Source: Anaerolineae bacterium (GTDB lineage Bacteria; Chloroflexota; Anaerolineae; Anaerolineales; Anaerolineaceae). From it: 64,000 nucleotides of DNA. The position numbers and the translations under genes are program-made. The notes under the pieces were generated by a model. It saw nothing but the letters and a program-made list of their open reading frames with translations. It had not been told where the DNA came from and did no database searches. Location of the stretch: positions 310,001 through 374,000 of the forward strand of contig JABLWW010000002.1 of assembly GCA_013178295.1 (NCBI GenBank). The letters are read 5' to 3'. This document shows positions 13,061 to 20,676 of this stretch, piece after piece; within the stretch, counting starts at the first letter, position 1, and each line of letters starts with the position of its first letter.

Positions 13061-13132
13061 GCCCCCATGGTCTAGTGGTTAGGACACAGCCCTTTCAAGG
13101 CTATAACAGGAGTTCGAATCTCCTTGGGGGCA
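13061..13132 (+). tRNA. tRNA-Glu (anticodon TTC)
   Basis: A 72-base cloverleaf. The acceptor stem GCCCCCA pairs with TGGGGGC and the discriminator base is A. The D loop contains AGTGGTTAGGA, the anticodon loop is CTTTCAA with anticodon TTC, and the T arm is GTTCGAATC. CCA is not encoded. It is flanked by its own promoter and terminator. Confidence 0.95.
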
Positions 13133-13137
13133 CAATG

Positions 13138-13160
13138 ACCGCCAAGAGGCGGTTTTTTTT
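13138..13160 (+). terminator. Rho-independent terminator after tRNA-Glu
   Basis: Six-base stem ACCGCC / GGCGGT with an AAGA loop followed by a run of eight T residues (13153-13160). The T run overlaps the stop codon of the convergent TPR gene. Confidence 0.85.
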
Positions 13161-13767
13161 AATTCTTGGATTTCATTTTTTCCAGGGCTTTCTCGGCGCG
13201 GCGAGCATAGAGCGAGGCTGGAAGAAGATCAATTACCTGGTTGTACTCTGCAATGGCTTTACTTTCCATTTTGAGACAACGATATGCTGAAGCCAGATTG
13301 TAATGCGCGGCTGCCTCATGTTTTAGGCCCAGAAAGCTTTGGTTTTCGTTTTGAAGCACCTTATTCAGAATATCAATGGCTTGCTGTGGGTTTCCCTGGT
13401 TGAGATATGCGGCAGCCTGATTAACCTGGATGATTGCCAAATTGGTGCGATCTGGAAAGAGGTGGTTGGCAAAGCGGTAAAGCGCATGCGCATTTTCGTG
13501 CTGATTTCGTTTAGCCAGTGAATTTGCGACATCAACAAGCAAACGGATACGCATTGTGGACAGATACAGAATGATGAGGAAAAAGATGGGCTGAATTGGA
13601 TACAACGAAAAGAAATCCAATCCTGTAGCAACCAGCGTAATGATTATGGATTCAACTGCAAAGTGTGTGGAGAGTCCCTCGCGCCGCAACAGAGAGAGAC
13701 CGCCGAAAATGAGTGTGTAAAGAATTCCAAGTAACAGAAGGATAAAAGATGAGTTCATATATTGCAT
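13159..13767 (-). CDS. Membrane-anchored TPR-repeat protein
   Basis: About 202 residues. Two or three hydrophobic segments occupy roughly residues 4-25, 40-55 and 58-75, followed by a soluble C-terminal part with tetratricopeptide-type helices: NQHENAHALYRFANHLFP, NQAAAYLNQGNPQQAIDILNKVL, and AAHYNLASAYRCLKMESKAIAEYNQVIDLLP. TPR domains are protein-interaction scaffolds; here one would face the cytosol or the outside depending on topology. The specific role is unknown. A second possible start is the Met at 13758 (MNSSF). The gene stands alone between tRNA-Glu and cstA. Confidence 0.7.
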   Translation of the reverse strand: MQYMNSSFILLLLGILYTLIFGGLSLLRREGLSTHFAVESIIITLVATGLDFFSLYPIQPIFFLIILYLSTMRIRLLVDVANSLAKRNQHENAHALYRFANHLFPDRTNLAIIQVNQAAAYLNQGNPQQAIDILNKVLQNENQSFLGLKHEAAAHYNLASAYRCLKMESKAIAEYNQVIDLLPASLYARRAEKALEKMKSKN

Positions 13768-13837
13768 CCATTCGGAAGTCTAAATACTTCTATGATTAGG
13801 TATGACAAAAATATTGACATAATCTTACATTTATCGC

Positions 13838-13866
13838 TTGTTATAACTGGCCACCCTAATTATAAT
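13838..13866 (+). promoter_or_regulatory. Promoter of cstA with about 200-base leader
   Basis: TTGTTA (13838-13843) and TATAAT (13861-13866) are separated by 17 bases. The implied transcript begins near 13873 and has a leader of about 200 bases before the cstA ATG at 14071. Apart from this promoter and a tiny leader frame (next entry), the gap 13768-14070 shows nothing else I can name. Confidence 0.65.
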
Positions 13867-13982
13867 GGGAATCTGGAGTCTGAAAGATTTACTACTGGTT
13901 GAAGGGGGAGTGGTAGAAAAACGGAATGGTTGTGTTGGAGATTGCGTAATGGTTATGGGGACAGTGTAAAAGCTGTAAGTGG

Positions 13983-14030
13983 AAGGAGGTGATCCTATTG
14001 GGGAAGGGTGAATTTGTGCTATCTAAATAA
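13983..14030 (+). promoter_or_regulatory. Perfect extended Shine-Dalgarno with 10-codon leader reading frame upstream of cstA
   Basis: AAGGAGGTGATCC at 13983-13995 is fully complementary to the 3' end of bacterial 16S rRNA. Seven bases after AGGAGGT is a TTG (13998) that opens a 10-codon frame, MGKGEFVLSK, ending in TAA at 14028-14030, 40 bases before the cstA start. It could be a translated leader peptide, a ribosome standby site, or coincidence. Confidence 0.35.
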
Positions 14031-14070
14031 ATTAAGTTGGTCGGTTTAATCGCGTTGTTAGGAGGATCAT

Positions 14071-15846
14071 ATGAATTCAATACTGATTTTGCTAATAGGC
14101 ATCGTGGCAATCATTGTAGGATACTTTGTTTATGCTAAATCCATCAATGTGAATGTTCTTCAACCGGATGATAAGAAAGCAACGCCGGCAAAGATGTATA
14201 TGGACGGGGTTGATTTTACCCCAGCAAACCGCAATGTCCTTTTTGGTTATCAATTTAAATCAATTGCCGCGTTGGGGCCTATTTTGGGTCCAATTGTGGC
14301 GGTTCAATGGGGATGGTTACCTGCTTTGTTATGGATTGTTTTGGGAACTTTCTTCATTGGATGGGTGCAGGATTATAGTAGCATTATGCTGGGGGTGCGC
14401 GAGGAAGGTCAAAGCTTTGGGGCGCTCAGCTACCGTCTGATCTCTCCACGCTCGCGTTCAATATTGATCACATTTATCTACTTTTACCTGTTGCTTATCA
14501 TGGGCGCCTTTGGGGTGCAGGTAGGATTTAGCCTTCTTACTAACCCTGCGGTTCCGCTGGGAGTGATTGTGGTAATTCTGGTGGGTATTCTAGCTGGGCA
14601 AATGACGTACAAGTGGAAAGTGGATATCATTCTGACCAGTGTTATCACAGTCGTTCTGGCGTTTGTTGCAATCTGGCTTGGGACACAGCCTTTTGCCAAA
14701 ACCTTTTTCTCCAATCTATTTGCTTACACCAAAGATGCTGACGGCAAGCTGGTCAGCCCGACGCTGTTTTTGGCGGTAACGCAAGCCAAGTTCATAGGCA
14801 GTTTGCTGGTAGTGATTATCTGCTACTTTGGGGCTGTCCTGCCTATCTGGCGGTGGGCACAGCCAATCAATTACGTGGCATTTTGGATTGTATCTCTGGG
14901 GATCCTGGGCGGCGTGGTTGGTCTGCTGATCGCGCGCCCTGGCATGGGAGATTTTCCAGCCTATACAAAGTTCACCATTGGGATAGGTCCGCTGTGGCCA
15001 ATGTTGTTTGTTACCATTGCCTGTGGCGCCATTTCTGGCTGGCATAGTCTGGTGTCCTCTTCGGGTACTGCCCGTCAGATTGAGAAAGAAAGCGATGCCC
15101 TGTTTGTTGGCGGCGGTGCGATGTTTTTTGAGATGATTTTTGCCATTGTGGCTTTTCTGACAGCAACGGCAGCGTTTGGCAGTTTTCAGGGGTACCAGGA
15201 TGCTGGCGGGGGAGCAGCGGCAGCAGCGGTATTCTCGAAGGGGCTTTCGGCTTTCATGAATCAATGGGGGCTTGACCGGATGCTTGGGGAAGGGTTTGGT
15301 ACAGCGTACGGCTCTGTATTTTTGACACTGATGGCATTGACGATCATGTATCTGGTGGTGCGTTTTATGCGCGTAGCCAGTGCGGAAGCCCTTGGTGATT
15401 CAATTCCGCTGTTCCGTAATGTGCATGTTGGTTCAGTGGTCGCGTTGCTGCTCACGCTGGTTCTGATCTGGCTGGTTCCCTTCTTGCAAATTTGGGCGGT
15501 GTTTGGTGCGGCAAACCAGCTTATGGCTTCTCTGGCATTGTTGTTGGTAACCGTGTGGTTAAAATCTAAGGGGAAGAAGTATCAATGGACTTTCTGGCCC
15601 TTTGTATTTATGTTTGTCACAACCATCGGTGCATTGCTGTATAAAGCGTACGAGGCTTTCTTCATCAACCTGCCCAAGACAGCAGACCCGGTTGCTAATA
15701 AGATTGCCAGCGTTGGGCAATTTACACTGGCACAAGTCATTATTGGCGGCGTGTCATTAGTATTGGTCGTCGCTGCTTTGCTGCTTGCCTGGGATGCTTT
15801 GAAGGTGTTGCAGGGTTCAAAGGCTCCAGCGAAAGCAGAGGCGTAG
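14071..15846 (+). CDS. cstA: Carbon-starvation protein CstA-family transporter
   Basis: A 591-residue polytopic membrane protein with more than a dozen hydrophobic segments. CstA-family landmarks include the early YFVYAKSI, DGVDFTPANRNVLFGYQFKSIAALGPILGP, WVQDYSSIMLGVREEGQSFGAL, SGWHSLVSSSGTARQIEKESDA (the longest conserved block) and FGAANQLMASLALL near the C-terminus. CstA proteins import peptides and, in Escherichia coli, pyruvate during carbon limitation. The C-terminus lacks any fused regulatory domain. AGGAGGATC precedes the ATG at close spacing. It is preceded by a clear promoter and a long leader and followed by a strong hairpin. The substrate here is inferred only from the family. 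Confidence 0.92.
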   Translation: MNSILILLIGIVAIIVGYFVYAKSINVNVLQPDDKKATPAKMYMDGVDFTPANRNVLFGYQFKSIAALGPILGPIVAVQWGWLPALLWIVLGTFFIGWVQDYSSIMLGVREEGQSFGALSYRLISPRSRSILITFIYFYLLLIMGAFGVQVGFSLLTNPAVPLGVIVVILVGILAGQMTYKWKVDIILTSVITVVLAFVAIWLGTQPFAKTFFSNLFAYTKDADGKLVSPTLFLAVTQAKFIGSLLVVIICYFGAVLPIWRWAQPINYVAFWIVSLGILGGVVGLLIARPGMGDFPAYTKFTIGIGPLWPMLFVTIACGAISGWHSLVSSSGTARQIEKESDALFVGGGAMFFEMIFAIVAFLTATAAFGSFQGYQDAGGGAAAAAVFSKGLSAFMNQWGLDRMLGEGFGTAYGSVFLTLMALTIMYLVVRFMRVASAEALGDSIPLFRNVHVGSVVALLLTLVLIWLVPFLQIWAVFGAANQLMASLALLLVTVWLKSKGKKYQWTFWPFVFMFVTTIGALLYKAYEAFFINLPKTADPVANKIASVGQFTLAQVIIGGVSLVLVVAALLLAWDALKVLQGSKAPAKAEA

Positions 15847-15859
15847 CTGGCATGTATTT

Positions 15860-15910
15860 ATGTATGCGACGCGCTGTCTTGCTGTGCGCGTCGCATACAT
15901 TTAGCTATTT
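15860..15910 (+). terminator. 15-bp perfect inverted repeat after cstA, probable terminator
   Basis: ATGTATGCGACGCGC (15860-15874) pairs perfectly with GCGCGTCGCATACAT (15886-15900) around an 11-base loop, followed by TTAGCTATTTTT. It ends cstA transcription or forms an operator/attenuator just 15 bases before the next gene. The imperfect T run leaves room for read-through. Confidence 0.7.
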
Positions 15911-15915
15911 TTCCA

Positions 15916-16302
15916 GTGAAAAGAGTTCTTGTTGATGTAATTACCCCCATACCCAAAAACTGGGGACTTTGTGAAAGCTGTCAGATGATTCTTTCACAAC
16001 TTGAACGTCTTGATCGGTCTCAAGATTATGCTTTTGAAGAGTTTCCCCCAGATTGGATGGAGGAATATCGTTCGCTGCTGAAAATAGTTTATGAGTTGGC
16101 TGAGCAGTTTGGCGATTCAATTCTGTTCCGTTTTTACGACCCGCGCTCTTTTCAAGGTGTTCTCCGTTCGTTACGATATGGTGTTCGCCGTTATCCTACC
16201 TTTGTTGTCAATGGCAGTGATAAAATTGTCGGCGTAGAAAATAGTTCTTTGCTAAGAGAGAAGGTGGTTAACAGCTTGTCTGATAAAAGGTATATTGAAT
16301 GA
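15916..16302 (+). CDS. Thioredoxin-like protein with CxxC motif, first gene of the ArsA cassette
   Basis: A 128-residue soluble protein not matching a named family. It has a CESC motif (Cys19, Cys22) near the N-terminus after a strand (RVLVDVITPIP), helical middle parts, and a thioredoxin-like end RYPTFVVNGSDKIVGV containing the cis-Pro and a final beta pair. This looks like a thioredoxin fold, possibly a redox or metal-binding partner. The start is a GTG at 15916 with no Shine-Dalgarno; a weak TTGCTG-N17-TAGCTA promoter (15879-15907) would make it leaderless. It overlaps the next gene by four bases (ATGA), so it is translationally coupled to the small hydrophobic protein and, through it, to the two ArsA-type ATPases. 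Confidence 0.65.
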   Translation: MKRVLVDVITPIPKNWGLCESCQMILSQLERLDRSQDYAFEEFPPDWMEEYRSLLKIVYELAEQFGDSILFRFYDPRSFQGVLRSLRYGVRRYPTFVVNGSDKIVGVENSSLLREKVVNSLSDKRYIE

Positions 16303-16595
16303 TTAATCATGTTGACAAGCTGAGGCGATATCTGAGAAGGTTGGTTAAAGCGGCTCTGGAGATGTTGTATGGTGCGACTGTGTATGAAATGGTTCGCGAT
16401 CTGCATAAGGAGCGCGCTCAGCTTGAACACATGTTTATTTTGGTTGTGTTTGGAGATATTCTTGGAATACCCGTTTTGCCGCCGTACTACACGCTTAGGC
16501 TATTACCTTATGTAGCACCGTGCATTGGTGGCTGGAAACGTACCCTTTTGCGCGAAAGAGATATAACAGATTTGTGCGATCAGGAAATTACATAA
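16299..16595 (+). CDS. Small conserved hydrophobic protein A of the ArsA cassette
   Basis: A 98-residue protein, paralogous to the next one. Residues about 43-90 read LEHMFILVVFGDILGIPVLPPYY..., then LRLLPYVAPCIGGWKR and LLRERDITDL. The same pattern, with some 60% identity by eye over this block, occurs in the following gene. The block has one hydrophobic helix, a Gly-Ile-Pro turn and a basic end; it could be a membrane anchor or amphipathic segment. The N-terminal 40 residues are basic and unrelated to those of the paralogue except for a MLYGATVYEM / ILYGMAGHDM echo. No known family is recognised. It is coupled by ATGA overlap to the CxxC protein. Confidence 0.6.
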   Translation: MINHVDKLRRYLRRLVKAALEMLYGATVYEMVRDLHKERAQLEHMFILVVFGDILGIPVLPPYYTLRLLPYVAPCIGGWKRTLLRERDITDLCDQEIT

Positions 16596-16634
16596 GCTTT
16601 AAACACTTTTCATTATGATAAGGAGTTTCATATT

Positions 16635-16904
16635 ATGGCAGACGAAGAAAAAAAACCTGGTTTTTTTGCAAACTTTAAGAGCATTCTTTATGGCATGGCG
16701 GGGCATGATATGGCGCGCTATGCCCTTAAGACGCGTGGGAGTATGGAGCATCTGTTTATCCTGATCACCATGGGTGATTTGTTGGGTATCCCCATCCTGC
16801 CGCCTTATTATAGCTTGCGTCTGTTGCCTTACGTGGTTCCGCAGATCAGCACCTGGAAACGGCGCATGCTACGTGAAAAAGATCTCACTGATGCTTTGGC
16901 ATGA
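16635..16904 (+). CDS. Small conserved hydrophobic protein B of the ArsA cassette
   Basis: An 89-residue paralogue of the previous protein. The shared block is MEHLFILITMGDLLGIPILPPYY..., then LRLLPYVVPQISTWKRRMLREKDLTD. The start is ATG 16635 with AAGGAG eleven to fifteen bases upstream. Its stop lies 16 bases before the first ArsA-type ATPase. The pair of near-identical blocks next to two ArsA-type ATPases invites the idea that each ATPase handles or is recruited by one of these proteins. That is inference; the sequence itself shows only duplication, hydrophobicity and operon context. Confidence 0.68.
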   Translation: MADEEKKPGFFANFKSILYGMAGHDMARYALKTRGSMEHLFILITMGDLLGIPILPPYYSLRLLPYVVPQISTWKRRMLREKDLTDALA

Positions 16905-16920
16905 CCCCAGGAGGAATACG

Positions 16921-17901
16921 ATGTCTTTACGCGATTTTTTTGAAAAGTATCCGGAACGTCGTTATTTGATGTTTGGCGGCAAAGGGGGGCTGGGAAAAAC
17001 TACGTTTAGTGCAACAACGGCTTACTGGTTAGCGAAGCAAGGGTATAAAGTGCTTGTTTTCTCGGTAGATCCTCAGGCAAGTTTGTCGGATATCTTCAAA
17101 CGCGATATTTTTGGCAAAGGCGCTGTGGAAATTATGCCCAATCTGTATGCCCAGGAGGTTGATGCCGATCAGCGTATTAAAGCCTATCAGCAGGAAATTC
17201 GCCAGAAGATTCTGGATATGTATGGACTGGATGAGGTGCCTGAGGAAATCGAAAACTACATTCAGGCCGCGGCAGCTGAACCAGCAATGGAAGAGAGCGC
17301 TATCTTTGACGCGGTGGTTGACATTGTTGTAAGCGGTGAGTATGACTACTACATTTATGATTTGGTGCCTCTGGGGCACGCCTTGTATTATTTGAGCATG
17401 GCGTCGGTATATGATGAATGGATTGATAAAATCACTGCCCTGCGTGCCGAAATGGAGGAATATAGCAAAGTCGCCGCTGTGATGCAACGAAGCAAAGAGA
17501 GTGAAGAAGATAAAATTCTGAAAGAATTACAATATATCAAGCAACGAATCAACACCTCTTCGGGTATTTTGACGGATAAACAGCGTACTGCGTTTTTCTT
17601 TGTACTCATACCAGAGGAGATGATCATTTTGGATACGCAAAAGGCGGCGGGGTTGTTTGCCAAGTATAATGTGCCGCTTTCAGGTTATGTTGTCAACCGG
17701 GTGATACCCCGCGAGCTTGCCCAGCAAAACATTCCCGATTACTTGCGCAATCGGCTGGAGATGCAAAAGGGATATCTTGAAAAGATTGAGAACACCTTTG
17801 GAAATGAGGTTCATGCCTGGGTGCCCGAATTTGAGCGCGATATTACCGGTTTGCCGATGATTGAGCGTATGGCAGAGGTCGTTTTTGGAGGTGTGTCGTG
17901 A
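16921..17901 (+). CDS. ArsA/Get3-type ATPase 1, altered DTAP switch
   Basis: A 326-residue ATPase of the ArsA (anion-transporting/tail-anchor targeting) branch of deviant Walker A proteins. FGGKGGLGKTT (P loop, residues 18-28) has the signature Lys, and VLVFSVDPQASLSDIF follows as in ArsA. The second signature, DTAPTGHTLR in ArsA, is replaced by DLVPLGHALYY at about residues 147-157, so a key switch region differs. A coiled, charged middle part (about 180-220) and a C-terminal FFFVLIPEEMIILDT / YVVNRVIP block complete the fold. The start at 16921 follows a GGAGGAATACG Shine-Dalgarno. It overlaps ATPase 2 by four bases. The client is unknown; arsenic-efflux genes are absent. Confidence 0.85.
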   Translation: MSLRDFFEKYPERRYLMFGGKGGLGKTTFSATTAYWLAKQGYKVLVFSVDPQASLSDIFKRDIFGKGAVEIMPNLYAQEVDADQRIKAYQQEIRQKILDMYGLDEVPEEIENYIQAAAAEPAMEESAIFDAVVDIVVSGEYDYYIYDLVPLGHALYYLSMASVYDEWIDKITALRAEMEEYSKVAAVMQRSKESEEDKILKELQYIKQRINTSSGILTDKQRTAFFFVLIPEEMIILDTQKAAGLFAKYNVPLSGYVVNRVIPRELAQQNIPDYLRNRLEMQKGYLEKIENTFGNEVHAWVPEFERDITGLPMIERMAEVVFGGVS

Positions 17902-18875
17902 TCACTATGTCAATGAAACAATACTTGGAGAACAATCCTAATCTCAAATATATCTTTTTTGGCGGCAAAGGCGGGGTTGGGAAAACCGTGCTGGCAGGTA
18001 CTGCGGCGCTTTGGGCAGCGAATCAAGGGAAAAAGACGCTTCTGGCTTCTACCAACCCTGTACATTCGCTTTCCAGTATGCTGGATATGAATGTCTTTGG
18101 TAAGCCTACGGCAATACCTGGTGTACCAAATCTTGAGGCGTATGAAATTGACACTCGCGAAACGATTGAAAAATCGAAACGTGAGATTCGCGAGAAGATT
18201 GAATGGTTTCTCAAGTTTGCTGAGATTAAGACAAAAGCAGATGAGTTTGTTGAGTCTGCTACGATGAACCCCTCGTTTGAAGAATCCGCCATGTTCGAGA
18301 ACATGATTGATTTGATGTTTGAGAATAAGTATGAGGTCTATGTGTTTGACACGGCGCCAACTGCAAATGCGCGAAGATTGTTGGGCATGTCGGGGGTCTA
18401 TTCCATGTGGGTTAATAAAATGGTAAAGAGCCGTGAAGAGGCGATGTCCCTAAAGGATCTGCTCTCATACTCGAAGAAAAAGAAGGAAAAAGATCCCCTG
18501 ATGGAATATTTGCTCAACCTCAGGGAGCGCATGGCGCATGCGAAACAGCTGCTGACTGATGCAAATTTGACCTCGTTTTTCTTTGTAACTCTGCCTGAAG
18601 CCTTACCCATTGCCGTGATTACACGGTTTATCAAGTGGTTTGATGACTTTGGCATTCCGGTTGGTGGTGTTATTGTGAATATGAAAATTGATGAGAAAAG
18701 CGTTGGGGCGGACGCGCCTGATTTTGTCAAGAATCGTGTTGCGATGCAAGCCGAGTATATGCAGCAAATAGAGAAACTCTTTGATGGAAATGTGCGCGCA
18801 ATTTTGCCATTGCTTGAGACCGAGGTGAGAGGAGTTAATATGTTGCAGAGAATGTCAGAGCTACTGTTTGGTTGA
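17898..18875 (+). CDS. ArsA/Get3-type ATPase 2, intact motifs
   Basis: A 325-residue paralogue of the preceding ATPase. It keeps the deviant Walker A FGGKGGVGKT (about residues 21-30), ASTNPVHSLSSML, and the switch FDTAPTANARRLLGM (Asp about 151). N-termini of the two paralogues align (SLRDFFEKYPERRYLMF against SMKQYLENNPNLKYIFF). GTG 17898 is preferred to ATG 17907 because GGAGGTG lies at optimal distance and the GTGA overlap with the upstream stop suggests coupling. The pair may form a heterodimer in which only this copy has a standard switch; that is an inference from the motif difference. A terminator follows. Confidence 0.87.
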   Translation: MITMSMKQYLENNPNLKYIFFGGKGGVGKTVLAGTAALWAANQGKKTLLASTNPVHSLSSMLDMNVFGKPTAIPGVPNLEAYEIDTRETIEKSKREIREKIEWFLKFAEIKTKADEFVESATMNPSFEESAMFENMIDLMFENKYEVYVFDTAPTANARRLLGMSGVYSMWVNKMVKSREEAMSLKDLLSYSKKKKEKDPLMEYLLNLRERMAHAKQLLTDANLTSFFFVTLPEALPIAVITRFIKWFDDFGIPVGGVIVNMKIDEKSVGADAPDFVKNRVAMQAEYMQQIEKLFDGNVRAILPLLETEVRGVNMLQRMSELLFG

Positions 18876-18909
18876 AAGCTCTGTGTGGAAATGGCAAGCT
18901 GCTCACAGG

Positions 18910-18945
18910 AACAGGCGATGAAGTTAATCGCCTGTTTTGATTTTT
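18910..18945 (+). terminator. Rho-independent terminator after the ArsA cassette
   Basis: Stem AACAGGCGAT (18910-18919) / ATCGCCTGTT (18927-18936) with a seven-base loop, followed by TTGATTTTT. It closes the five-gene cassette and has no T run on the other strand. Confidence 0.8.
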
Positions 18946-19609
18946 AGGGGGCTATCTTTTTTTCTTTTGTGATCAGCGAAGACCACAGATTGGAGAGTGC
19001 CAGGAGAACCTCTTTGGAGCTTTGGGCTGTGGAAAGGGAGAAGGAGGCTCTCATTGAAAGGTGAGGCTCAGATTTTTGAATGGTTATATTTGAAAAGTGA
19101 TTTCCAGTTTTGTCAATAAAGTCTTTCAGAGCCTGCAAAAAGGTCTCGTTAACAGTTTGGGTTGAATAAAAATCGAAGTCATGATATGTCTCAAGAAATT
19201 GAAGCGCTTGAGATTGATAGTTTTGTCTTTCTACAGAAACTCTATCTCCCCTGCGGATGATTTGAAAGTTGGTGTCAGGTAGATGATGGGCTTTTGCTTG
19301 AAAGAGGATTGTGTCCCTTTTACCCATTAGAAGCTGATACGCCCATAATGGCAGGTTTTCACGCCTTTGCAGGATGAAAATGGCATCAAAAACCTTAAAG
19401 GGAAATGGTTTCTGTTTAATGCTCAAACGTAACCCGATTGATGCAGGGTTGATATAGGCAGGTTTGCTGACATCCCCCATCTGCTCCAGCCCGTTGCGAA
19501 ACCATGCGTCGAGCGACTTAATTCGTGCTCGATTGGCTAGCCATCCAAGCACAAAGCTCGCGCCAATCAGCACGCTGATGATGATCACAATGACTTGTTC
19601 TTTGCTCAT
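18944..19609 (-). CDS. Hypothetical protein with N-terminal membrane anchor, in XdhC operon
   Basis: A 221-residue protein. Residues about 5-24 form one hydrophobic helix, followed by a basic stretch and a soluble domain with no family I recognise (SIGLRLSIKQKPFPF, FILQRRENLPLWAYQLLMGKRDTI). It starts with ATGA overlapping the stop of the XdhC-C gene, so it is translated with it. A link to molybdenum enzyme maturation is suggested only by this context. Confidence 0.6.
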   Translation of the reverse strand: MSKEQVIVIIISVLIGASFVLGWLANRARIKSLDAWFRNGLEQMGDVSKPAYINPASIGLRLSIKQKPFPFKVFDAIFILQRRENLPLWAYQLLMGKRDTILFQAKAHHLPDTNFQIIRRGDRVSVERQNYQSQALQFLETYHDFDFYSTQTVNETFLQALKDFIDKTGNHFSNITIQKSEPHLSMRASFSLSTAQSSKEVLLALSNLWSSLITKEKKIAP

Positions 19610-20355
19610 GAGCCAATAGTTTTTATGAGTTTATTGCGCTTGACCGCTAAAATTTCAGCGATAATTGTCAGGGCAATTTCTGCTGCTCCAACTGCGCCTA
19701 AATCCAGCCCGATGGGGGAGTGGATGCGTTGAAAGAGTTTTTCATCCACTCCTATTTCTTTAAGTTCTGCGAGCCGACCTTCGTGTGTCTTTCGAGAACC
19801 GAGGATGCCGATATATCGCGCGGGGCTTTGTAGCGCCACTTGCAGGGCGGGCACATCGAATTTGTTGTCGTGGCTCAGGATAGTTACAAATGTAGAAACA
19901 TCAATGCCCAAACGCGCCATGGCGTCTGCTGGCCATTCGAGGATTAACTCGTCGGCGTGTGGGAAACGCTCGCGATTTGCAAAGGCTTTGCGAGGATCAA
20001 TGACAATCGTATAGAATCCGAGAGGTTTTGCGTATGTAACCAGCGGAATGGCAATGTGTACCGCGCCAACAATCATCAGTCGCGGGGGAGGCGGAAAGAC
20101 GTCAACAAAGACGGGGGTTTCTGTTTCTTTCAGTTTGATCGTAATTTGGGAAGGGGTTTGAGCCTTCATTTGCTCAAGGAGATGCGCTTGTACGGTTTGG
20201 TTTATCTCCGATGAGCCAAGATCACCAAGCAGCGTCCCATCCTGCAACAATAAAAGCTTTTTCCCCAACGCTGAGCCAGAAAGGACTGTTGCCAGAGCAC
20301 AGATTTGACGATTTTCGATAGCGGTTTTTAGAGCGTCAAATAAAAGAGTATTCAT
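19606..20355 (-). CDS. XdhC-family protein, Rossmann (XdhC_C) domain form
   Basis: A 249-residue protein. The N-terminal part (about 1-100) is a short CoxI-like region (ICALATVLSGSALGKKLLLL), and residues about 105-240 form the XdhC Rossmann domain with PRLMIVGAVHIAIPLVTYAKPLGF, VIDPRKAFANRERFP, SHDNKFDVPAL, YIGILGSRKTHEGR and SPIGLDLGAVGAAEIALTI. XdhC proteins bind and sulfurate the molybdenum cofactor before insertion into xanthine-dehydrogenase-type enzymes. No such dehydrogenase is encoded in the window. The gene starts six bases after the preceding XdhC_N-like protein, so the usual single polypeptide is spread over two. Confidence 0.82.
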   Translation of the reverse strand: MNTLLFDALKTAIENRQICALATVLSGSALGKKLLLLQDGTLLGDLGSSEINQTVQAHLLEQMKAQTPSQITIKLKETETPVFVDVFPPPPRLMIVGAVHIAIPLVTYAKPLGFYTIVIDPRKAFANRERFPHADELILEWPADAMARLGIDVSTFVTILSHDNKFDVPALQVALQSPARYIGILGSRKTHEGRLAELKEIGVDEKLFQRIHSPIGLDLGAVGAAEIALTIIAEILAVKRNKLIKTIGS

Positions 20356-20361
20356 CAGATG

Positions 20362-20676
20362 TCACCAATTTAGAGCCTCTACATAAACCTGAACCGAACC
20401 GCCACAAGCCAGCCCAATATCCCACGCCTGATTGTTTGATATACCGTAGTCAAGCAATTTGGGGACGCCTGTCTTCATGACGTTGAGTGCTTCTTCTATC
20501 ACTGCCCCTTCAATACAGCCGCCACTGACGGATCCGGCAAAATCGCCTGTTGAAGATATTACCATCTTTGAACCCAGCGGGCGAGGTGCCGATCCATAAG
20601 CCTGAACAATTGTAGCGAGGGCAATTTGTTTTCCTTCTTGTTTCCATTTCTCGATAGTAGGTAAAAGTTCACGCAT
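20362..20676 (-). CDS. XdhC/CoxI N-terminal-domain protein (stand-alone)
   Basis: A 104-residue protein equal to the N-terminal XdhC/CoxI domain: ALATIVQAYGSAPRPLGSKMVIS, GSVSGGCIEGAVIEEA and a terminal IGLACGGSVQVYVE. The conserved Cys residues in SGGCIEG and LACGG are intact. It is first in the three-gene - strand unit. Splitting into a domain of this size and a separate Rossmann protein is known in several anaerobes; both halves here are complete, so this is not a frameshift. Confidence 0.82.
   Translation of the reverse strand: MRELLPTIEKWKQEGKQIALATIVQAYGSAPRPLGSKMVISSTGDFAGSVSGGCIEGAVIEEALNVMKTGVPKLLDYGISNNQAWDIGLACGGSVQVYVEALNW

Follow-up and report, generated by a model that had tools for sequence, protein, structure and literature searches.

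The closest described relatives of the locus reported here are the CstA-CstX-ArsA systems, which Castillo and Saier predicted in 2010 from 26 gene clusters and from co-evolution (PMC2963123). The available parts of their account describe adjacent ArsA pairs in two organisms, replacement of the aspartate of the SXD motif of single-domain proteins by asparagine only, single-domain ArsAs as possible homodimers and a further protein, CstY, seen only in archaea (PMC2963123). We have analysed a locus of this type within a 64,000 nucleotide stretch of an Anaerolineae bacterium genome (GenBank contig JABLWW010000002.1, positions 310,001 to 374,000; 'the window' refers to this whole stretch). It comprises a gene for a CstA-family transporter, followed by a five-gene cassette encoding a thioredoxin-fold protein (TRX), two small proteins (S1 and S2) and two ATPases of the Get3/ArsA type (A1 and A2), and a convergent gene for a protein with a single transmembrane helix (MEM) (Table 1). 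The window resembles the CstA-CstX-ArsA systems in having CstA in the cluster, ArsA homologues of about 330 residues and no ars genes beside them. S1 and S2 resemble CstX in being near 90 residues long with one hydrophobic segment, a comparison made only on size (about 90 residues) and one transmembrane segment.

The initial annotation of the cassette knew of no named system with this layout. This holds only in part: the CstA-CstX-ArsA systems were predicted in 2010 (PMC2963123), and a protein family, NF041419, exists to which the small proteins are distantly related. The association of CstA, CstX and ArsA, the idea that CstX acts as a linker and the occurrence of adjacent ArsA pairs have all been in the literature since then. 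The locus departs from the available parts of the Castillo and Saier account in an Asp/Asn split tied to the members of the ATPase pair, in a TRX member within cst clusters and in a member with a CCDC47-like fold; these three features are new in that we found no report of them in the literature searched.

Several other described systems share individual features with the locus. In Escherichia coli, CstA needs a small partner, YbdD, for uptake, according to the consulted parts of PMC5847655. The window likewise combines CstA with small proteins, and YbdD and the cory-CC-star protein of Cytobacillus (see below) both end in RCC; no ATPase is described for the E. coli pair, and S1 and S2, unlike YbdD, have neither a match to PF04328 nor a CC end. 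Like Get3/TRC40, the window ATPases are single-domain proteins with a deviant P-loop (GKGG(V/L)GKT) and are expected to dimerise. Unlike Get3/TRC40, the pair has one site that is naturally changed from Asp to Asn, lacks the CxxC zinc motif and is tied to one transporter. Two different ATPases of ArsA/Get3 fold also occur in mycobacteria (BagA and BagB, Rv3679/Rv3680), and there are weak NCBIfam matches to both, but the match of A1 to BagA is far weaker (E 8.6e-12) than that to TIGR00345 (E 3.6e-69). In contrast to the ArsA arsenite pump, the window ATPases are single domains that fall far below the cut-off of TIGR04291 (91 and 111 bits against 650 bits), and the absence of arsenic genes remarked on in the initial annotation holds for the six window neighbours scanned, none of which is an ars gene. 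Finally, MEM shares an N-terminal transmembrane helix and a cytosolic alpha/beta domain with CCDC47, a eukaryotic membrane-protein chaperone (PAT complex), and with TtfA, a mycobacterial partner of MmpL3. It differs in lying below the Pfam cut-off, and no Asterix-family match is found among the small proteins.

The components of the system are distributed together. We sought each part separately in 400 Chloroflexota genomes, taken as one fixed draw, and found CstA in 40, the A2-type ATPase in 39, the small protein in 38 and TRX in 34, all 34 also with CstA. These counts leave aside four of 42 small-protein genomes (G262, G295, G371 and G393; E 7e-4 to 7e-3, unconfirmed by our own profile) and one of 40 A2 genomes (G321; 180 bits against at least 430 bits). 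CstA and the A2-type ATPase occur together in 37 genomes, A2 only in two, CstA only in three and neither in 358 (Fisher p 3e-46, a value that assumes independent genomes, which they are not; the CstA matches span 34 of 225 genera). MEM was sought in 80 of the 400 genomes: it is present in 33 of the 42 with the system or CstA and in none of the 38 tested genomes without the system. YbdD (PF04328) was found in none of the 42. Four CstA genomes have no small protein (G089, G105, G170 and G199), of which G105 and G199 possess A2, and one (G137) has CstA and the small protein with an A1 gene running off the contig end.

The link between CstA and the ATPases is more than a matter of gene order, since some genomes keep the parts far apart. 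For example, G208, assembled as one contig, has CstA and TRX near 3.30 Mb, the S-S-A1-A2 group at 0.68 Mb and MEM at 1.68 Mb. Where the parts are linked, maps of the Chloroflexota loci (L033-L080) show the recurrent order CstA, TRX, S, S, A1, A2, often with MEM on the opposite strand. The cassette is conserved and not a chance arrangement: the mapped loci repeatedly show S genes, two in most cases, followed by A1 and A2. Small proteins standing apart from the ATPases were also sought, and all eight Chloroflexota loci with such an orphan lie in genomes that also hold an A2-type ATPase. The refutation suggested in the initial annotation, a wide occurrence of small proteins without ATPases, is thus mostly not borne out, although L127, from another group, points the other way. 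Judged by gene content, CstA, the CstX-like proteins and the A1/A2 pair are inherited together in Chloroflexota, with TRX and MEM as frequent extras.

The second principal result concerns the two ATPases, which are 33% identical over 324 residues. They had been correctly assigned to the ArsA/Get3 type: each is a single domain that matches PF02374 over nearly its whole length, and both exceed the 135-bit cut-off of TIGR00345 (233.6 and 219.1 bits). The best match of A1 in the PDB is 3ug6 (E 9e-62), which we take to be an archaeal Get3; the two-domain algal ArsA1 (5zme) gives E 2e-51 and E. coli ArsA (1f48) E 2e-32. A1 carries SVDPQASL in switch I and DLVPLGH in switch II, and A2 carries STNPVHSL and DTAPTAN. 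The switch-I aspartate is present in 102 of 102 unique A1 sequences. Of 99 unique A2 sequences, 98 have the asparagine and one, a fragment, has a gap there. All 102 A1 sequences carry Gly-His in switch II, where all 99 A2 sequences carry Ala-Asn. In a tree of 43 sequences, midpoint-rooted and computed with a long-branch warning from the program, A1 and A2 lie on opposite sides of a strongly supported branch (100/98, 100/99), with three single ATPases outside. A1 and A2 are, by this tree and these alignments, separate branches fixed in complementary active-site states. The A2 asparagine aligns with the aspartate of the archaeal structures 3ug6 and 3zq6, and from the motif we take this residue to correspond to D57 of yeast Get3. 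D57 is essential for hydrolysis, and the D57N protein binds ATP without hydrolysing it and traps Get3 with ATP, according to the consulted parts of PMC12506534. The fixed Asp/Asn split therefore suggests an A1/A2 heterodimer with one working ATPase site.

The system extends well beyond the genomes of the draw. A scan of a genome collection gave 388 matches, of which the best 80 are considered here as related loci; labels of the metagenome-assembled genomes (MAGs) among them include Acidobacteria, Gemmatimonadetes, Methylomirabilota, Actinomycetes, WOR-3, Desulfobacterota and several deltaproteobacterial groups. A1 lies beside the small protein in 77 of the 80, CstA in 67, and A1, A2 and CstA together in 60. 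Ten of the 13 loci in which CstA is missing beside the small protein start no more than about 600 bases from a contig end; the exceptions are L111, L125 and L150. G192, the genome of L111, has its CstA on another contig, and eight of the other 12 genomes have CstA elsewhere. Where A1 is missing beside the small protein, L104 and L130 stop at a contig end and L127 does not. The class to which G400 belongs, represented by 55 genomes, formed a second group, in which A1 and A2 are both present in seven; CstA is on the same contig in six of these, and in the seventh (G435) the contig starts just before the system and CstA was not found.

A simpler form occurs on annotated plasmids of Cytobacillus, Paracoccus and Pseudochrobactrum, which carry CstA, a cory-CC-star protein and one ArsA-family ATPase at a short distance from one another (in Cytobacillus with one hypothetical gene between the first two). 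Our small-protein profile matches the three cory proteins with E 1.4e-11, 1.8e-7 and 3.4e-9, respectively, and the single ATPases retain the usual STDP and DTAPTGH motifs. Going by these annotated genes, Bacillota and Alphaproteobacteria have a one-ATPase version of the system (CstA, cory-CC-star, ArsA). All six cory-positive plasmid records also contain CstA. A plasmid search with S2 gave no match, and one with CstA gave 128 records; none of seven of these, picked by choice and examined by profile, has a cory relative. CstA without cory and ArsA is thus common.

S1 and S2 are paralogues, as the initial annotation had recognised, with 58% identity over 71 residues. S1, the variable one of the two, has 98 residues and S2 has 89; each has one hydrophobic segment, near residues 42-60 in S1 and marginal in S2 (KD19 1.61). 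Both match the cory-CC-star family NF041419 (S1, E 7e-8, 32.4 bits; S2, E 3e-8, 33.4 bits), an equivalog whose curated cut-off of 80 bits is reached by neither protein, nor anywhere in the 400 Chloroflexota genomes (0/400). Profile similarity indicates that they are distant kin of this family. S1 and S2 close with QEIT and DALA, and the CC ending, as read from the name cory-CC-star, is found in none of the 86 small proteins examined from the window and L033-L080. S2 is extremely conserved. Its final 57 residues are the same at all positions (57/57) in a MAG labelled Acidobacteriota; the six other MAGs compared (L160, L150, L148, L132, L127 and L154) show one to nine differences, and agreement is 53-54 of 57 in Desulfarculus and a Deltaproteobacteria MAG, it being understood that the scan pattern itself selects part of this conserved block. 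Lateral transfer or binning errors may lie behind part of this identity.

The proposal of one small protein per ATPase is not supported by a wider sample. Within 3.5 kb, 78 loci with an A1-type gene (some of which end at contig edges) have one small protein in 24 cases, two in 49 and three in five, and the one-ATPase form has one of each. The corresponding idea that S1 and S2 each have a different one of the two ATPases as partner is suggested by the two small proteins and two ATPases of most Chloroflexota loci, but we consider it very improbable: a single small protein accompanies two ATPases in many MAGs of deltaproteobacterial type, three accompany two ATPases in some relatives of the same order, and one accompanies one in Bacillota and Alphaproteobacteria.

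Two possible homologies of the small proteins were considered. The RCC end is common by eye to cory-CC-star and YbdD, but PF04328 gave no match at any E-value tried, either for S1 and S2 (E up to 1) or for two cory proteins (E up to 5), and is not among the families listed for 36 small proteins. Asterix, which we take to be the partner of CCDC47, is also absent from the Pfam families listed for these 36 members. Outside the cassette, further orphan copies of the small protein are present in L034, L035, L036, L047, L049, L051, L054 and L068, and in G208 and G276 an orphan lies about 3 kb from the MEM gene. A diverged branch (L056, L061, L063 and L073) has one S gene before A1/A2 and a very different second one beyond the ATPases, ending in IH or LH and lying on the opposite strand in L056 and L073; the A2 of this branch carries SLNP.

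MEM was identified by its fold. Its AlphaFold2 model (pLDDT 87.7, pTM 0.82) shows a cytosolic alpha/beta domain preceded by one long N-terminal helix, and the best structural matches are 7tm3_4 (VIA Z 16.7 over 215 residues), 9i78_4 (Z 15.2) and 6w6l_7 and TtfA 6t84 (Z 11.2 each), the next row having only Z 6.8. The corresponding Foldseek E-values range from 5.5e-7 to 8.6e-4. The chains 7tm3_4, 9i78_4 and 6w6l_7 come from translocons of the endoplasmic reticulum. The second is labelled CCDC47 and the other two are presumably CCDC47 as well, a protein described in the 6w6l complex (PMC7505659, in the parts consulted). In TtfA, which has an N-terminal transmembrane segment, the C terminus is cytoplasmic; the protein is needed together with MmpL3 for lipid transport, according to the consulted text of PMC6593404. 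On the predicted structure, MEM has the whole CCDC47/TtfA fold, transmembrane helix and cytosolic domain included, at a sequence identity of about 7-13%.

Sequence comparison reveals much less. PF07946 (CCDC47) is the Pfam family that matches most MEM members, but these are only 2 of 22, weakly and below the cut-off (best E 0.014), and the window MEM itself is not matched. A PF07946 search over 22 of the 42 genomes gave nothing above the cut-off and nothing at the MEM positions; two matches elsewhere contain internal stops, and two control genomes gave matches at chance level. A MEM profile run against the PDB reaches 9i78 CCDC47 only at E 5, over the transmembrane helix and ranked below chance antibody chains. 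The case for CCDC47 thus consists of the fold and the weak PF07946 matches, the sequence profile giving no real match. By size and transmembrane count, the only points compared, MEM (221 residues, one N-terminal helix) could possibly be the CstY of Castillo and Saier (about 210 residues, one helix, optional).

The first cassette gene had been described as encoding a thioredoxin-like CxxC protein, and this assignment is sound: C19 and C22 of the CxxC motif and P94, the proline of a cis-Pro-like YPTF loop, show no variation in the 17 aligned rows, and the TRX profile matches the thioredoxin 4knd in the PDB (E 1.1e-5), over profile positions 43-120 of 127 with the CxxC outside the match. A system of the Sao selenoprotein type was considered on the strength of a weak SaoT match (E 0.1) and dropped because the published Sao parts, in the available text of PMC13188914, are listed as ABC-transporter and other components without CstA. 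The hypothetical gene that separates CstA from cory-CC-star in Cytobacillus (L161, 5338-5625) encodes a protein with a TRX-like DPR-F stretch and no CxxC; this protein is beyond the reach of the TRX profile.

Taken together, the cassette may encode cytosolic and membrane partners of one transporter, CstA, and we give this model about an even chance of being correct in outline. The client of the window ATPases is very likely CstA, whose substrate, judging by family only, would be pyruvate-like or peptides. A1 and A2 would pair as a heterodimer, with ATP hydrolysis confined to the A1 site and ATP staying bound at the A2 site. S1 and S2, at the membrane, would dock this heterodimer, MEM would scaffold the complex and the ATPase cycle would load or assemble CstX onto CstA in a manner resembling Get3 and PAT, making the formation of active CstA dependent on an ample ATP supply. 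TRX, as a redox partner, would tie the complex to the thiol state. That the ATPase cycle serves assembly is a reading we favour, slightly, because of the MEM fold and the kinship with Get3, and we place it a little short of even. In its most specific form, a machine for assembling the single client CstA, with a Get3-type heterodimer having one naturally dead site, a CCDC47-fold scaffold and tiny, extremely conserved adaptors as a prokaryotic counterpart of GET and PAT united in a single gene neighbourhood, it is rather unlikely.

A number of observations weigh against this model. Biogenesis factors with a single client are unusual, and TtfA, which has the same fold as MEM, is a transport partner and not an assembly factor. 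Neither MEM nor TRX is universal: within the available flanks they accompany 28 and 45, respectively, of the 80 related loci, and MEM is found in none of 14 loci of deltaproteobacterial type checked, in which the core may therefore work without a CCDC47-like part. The AlphaFold2 model of S2 is of low confidence (pLDDT 58, pTM 0.31), which bears on the topology of the small proteins. Neither A1 nor A2 of the window contains any cysteine, and the CxxC zinc motif of Get3 is thus absent, where the archaeal 3ug6 and 3zq6 hold CxFC at the aligned position. There are also genomes that do not fit. In the draw, G233 (89% complete) carries A1/A2 twice but gave no CstA match, G002 (73% complete) has the small protein or ATPase without a CstA match, and G089 and G170 have CstA without small protein, A2, TRX or MEM. 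Among the related loci, the genomes of L093, L100, L115 and L147 (G463, G464, G468 and G435) have no CstA match, some of the CstA-less genomes having contigs cut at the system. L127, from a WOR-3 MAG, possesses CstA and S2, but the gene after them (1936-2898) is permease-like, as named by eye, and takes the place of A1; this ATPase absence refers to the locus only. Finally, 17 of the 23 CstA genomes in the class of G400 are without A1/A2, so the pair accompanies only a fraction of CstA proteins.

The published alternative is that of Castillo and Saier, in which CstX links CstA to the ArsA homologues and a proton-driven carrier becomes an ATP-driven pump, as ArsA makes of ArsB. Their argument from gene clusters and co-evolution (PMC2963123, in the parts available) is strengthened by how closely the ATPases are tied to a single transporter, and the fold of MEM is also that of TtfA, needed for transport by MmpL3 (PMC6593404, available parts). 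This close tie and the TtfA match favour a direct role in transport. However, E. coli CstA loses some or all of its uptake when protonophores are present, so its driving force is the proton gradient (PMC7730263, in the text consulted), and we infer that no ATPase takes part there. In addition, A1 is nearer to the single-domain archaeal 3ug6 than to E. coli ArsA, with the two-domain algal protein in between, and the lack of cysteine in both window ATPases also speaks against a pump of this kind. We regard it as rather unlikely.

Less probable again is a switch that senses ATP or redox state, in which an A1/A2 dimer with its ATP-locked site would bind CstX/CstA and gate transport according to energy and thiol state, much as PII proteins gate AmtB. 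A fixed non-hydrolytic site would suit a sensor or timer, and TRX offers a conserved CxxC partner; E. coli cstA is expressed in stationary phase (PMC7730263, in the text consulted). Against it, no sensory domain was seen and A1 retains the catalytic residues examined. There is very little chance that the genes form an independent system for arsenic, metals or tail-anchored proteins in general that merely lies beside cstA. The homology to ArsA/Get3, the thioredoxin-like neighbour and the few genomes with ATPases and no CstA match would fit such a system, but the ATPases are co-inherited with CstA even when unlinked, the same trio recurs in Bacillota and Alphaproteobacteria and, as noted above, the window neighbours scanned include no ars gene.

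To our knowledge, few jobs are known for bacterial Get3/ArsA relatives outside arsenic resistance, and the system bears on the role of these ATPases. It also bears on why CstA-family transporters need small partner proteins and on whether chaperones of the CCDC47 type have prokaryotic relatives. From the fixed Asp/Asn split one would predict that the heterodimer is obligate and has only one working ATPase site, as a natural counterpart of the Get3 D57N trap, and the ATPase pair together with CstA provides a testable model for building or powering a carbon-starvation (pyruvate-type) transporter.

Table 1. Positions of the cst locus and adjoining features in the window
Feature	Position	Strand	Remarks
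TPR membrane protein	13159..13767	-	TPR Pfam matches; frequent neighbour, doubtful member
CstA-family transporter, 591 residues	14071..15846	+	PF02554 E 4e-118
Hairpin between cstA and the cassette	15860..15900	+	15 bp, then T-rich run; terminator- or attenuator-like
TRX, thioredoxin-fold protein with CxxC, 128 residues	15916..16302	+	GTG start
S1, CstX-like small protein 1, 98 residues	16299..16595	+	
S2, CstX-like small protein 2, 89 residues	16635..16904	+	
A1, Get3/ArsA-type ATPase, 326 residues	16921..17901	+	From ATG at 16921; PF02374 E 8e-71
A2, Get3/ArsA-type ATPase, 325 residues	17898..18875	+	PF02374 E 3e-68
Terminator-like hairpin closing the cassette	18908..18938	+	12 pairs, then GATTTTT
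MEM, single-transmembrane protein of CCDC47/TtfA-like fold, 221 residues	18944..19609	-	Convergent to the cassette

All five open reading frames (ORFs) of the cassette lie where the initial annotation had placed them, and the overlaps it described, ATGA at 16299-16302 and GTGA at 17898-17901, are present in the sequence. The unit is larger than had been thought, however, the CstA gene, the CCDC47-like gene and the hairpin between cstA and the cassette having been overlooked. A simple Kyte-Doolittle count gives the window CstA at least 13 hydrophobic segments. A single terminator had been proposed at the cassette end; a hairpin with a T tail is indeed found there, but a terminator scan of 13700-19700 gives no more candidates than shuffled sequence (6 against a mean of 7.0). 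This consensus scan omits the hairpin between cstA and the cassette, whose loop exceeds its limit. The latter is strong (-27.6 kcal/mol, z -5.72, none of 200 shuffles equally low) and could serve in termination, attenuation or protection of the cstA transcript.

Homologues of the TPR membrane protein occur in 34 of the 80 related loci, on the opposite strand upstream of cstA or soon after A2. On the far side of MEM, an XdhC-family maturation factor for aldehyde oxidoreductase is encoded on the reverse strand as two adjacent ORFs corresponding to its N- and C-terminal parts (19606-20676), and a tRNA gene lies on the forward strand at 13061-13132 (RF00005, 67.7 bits).

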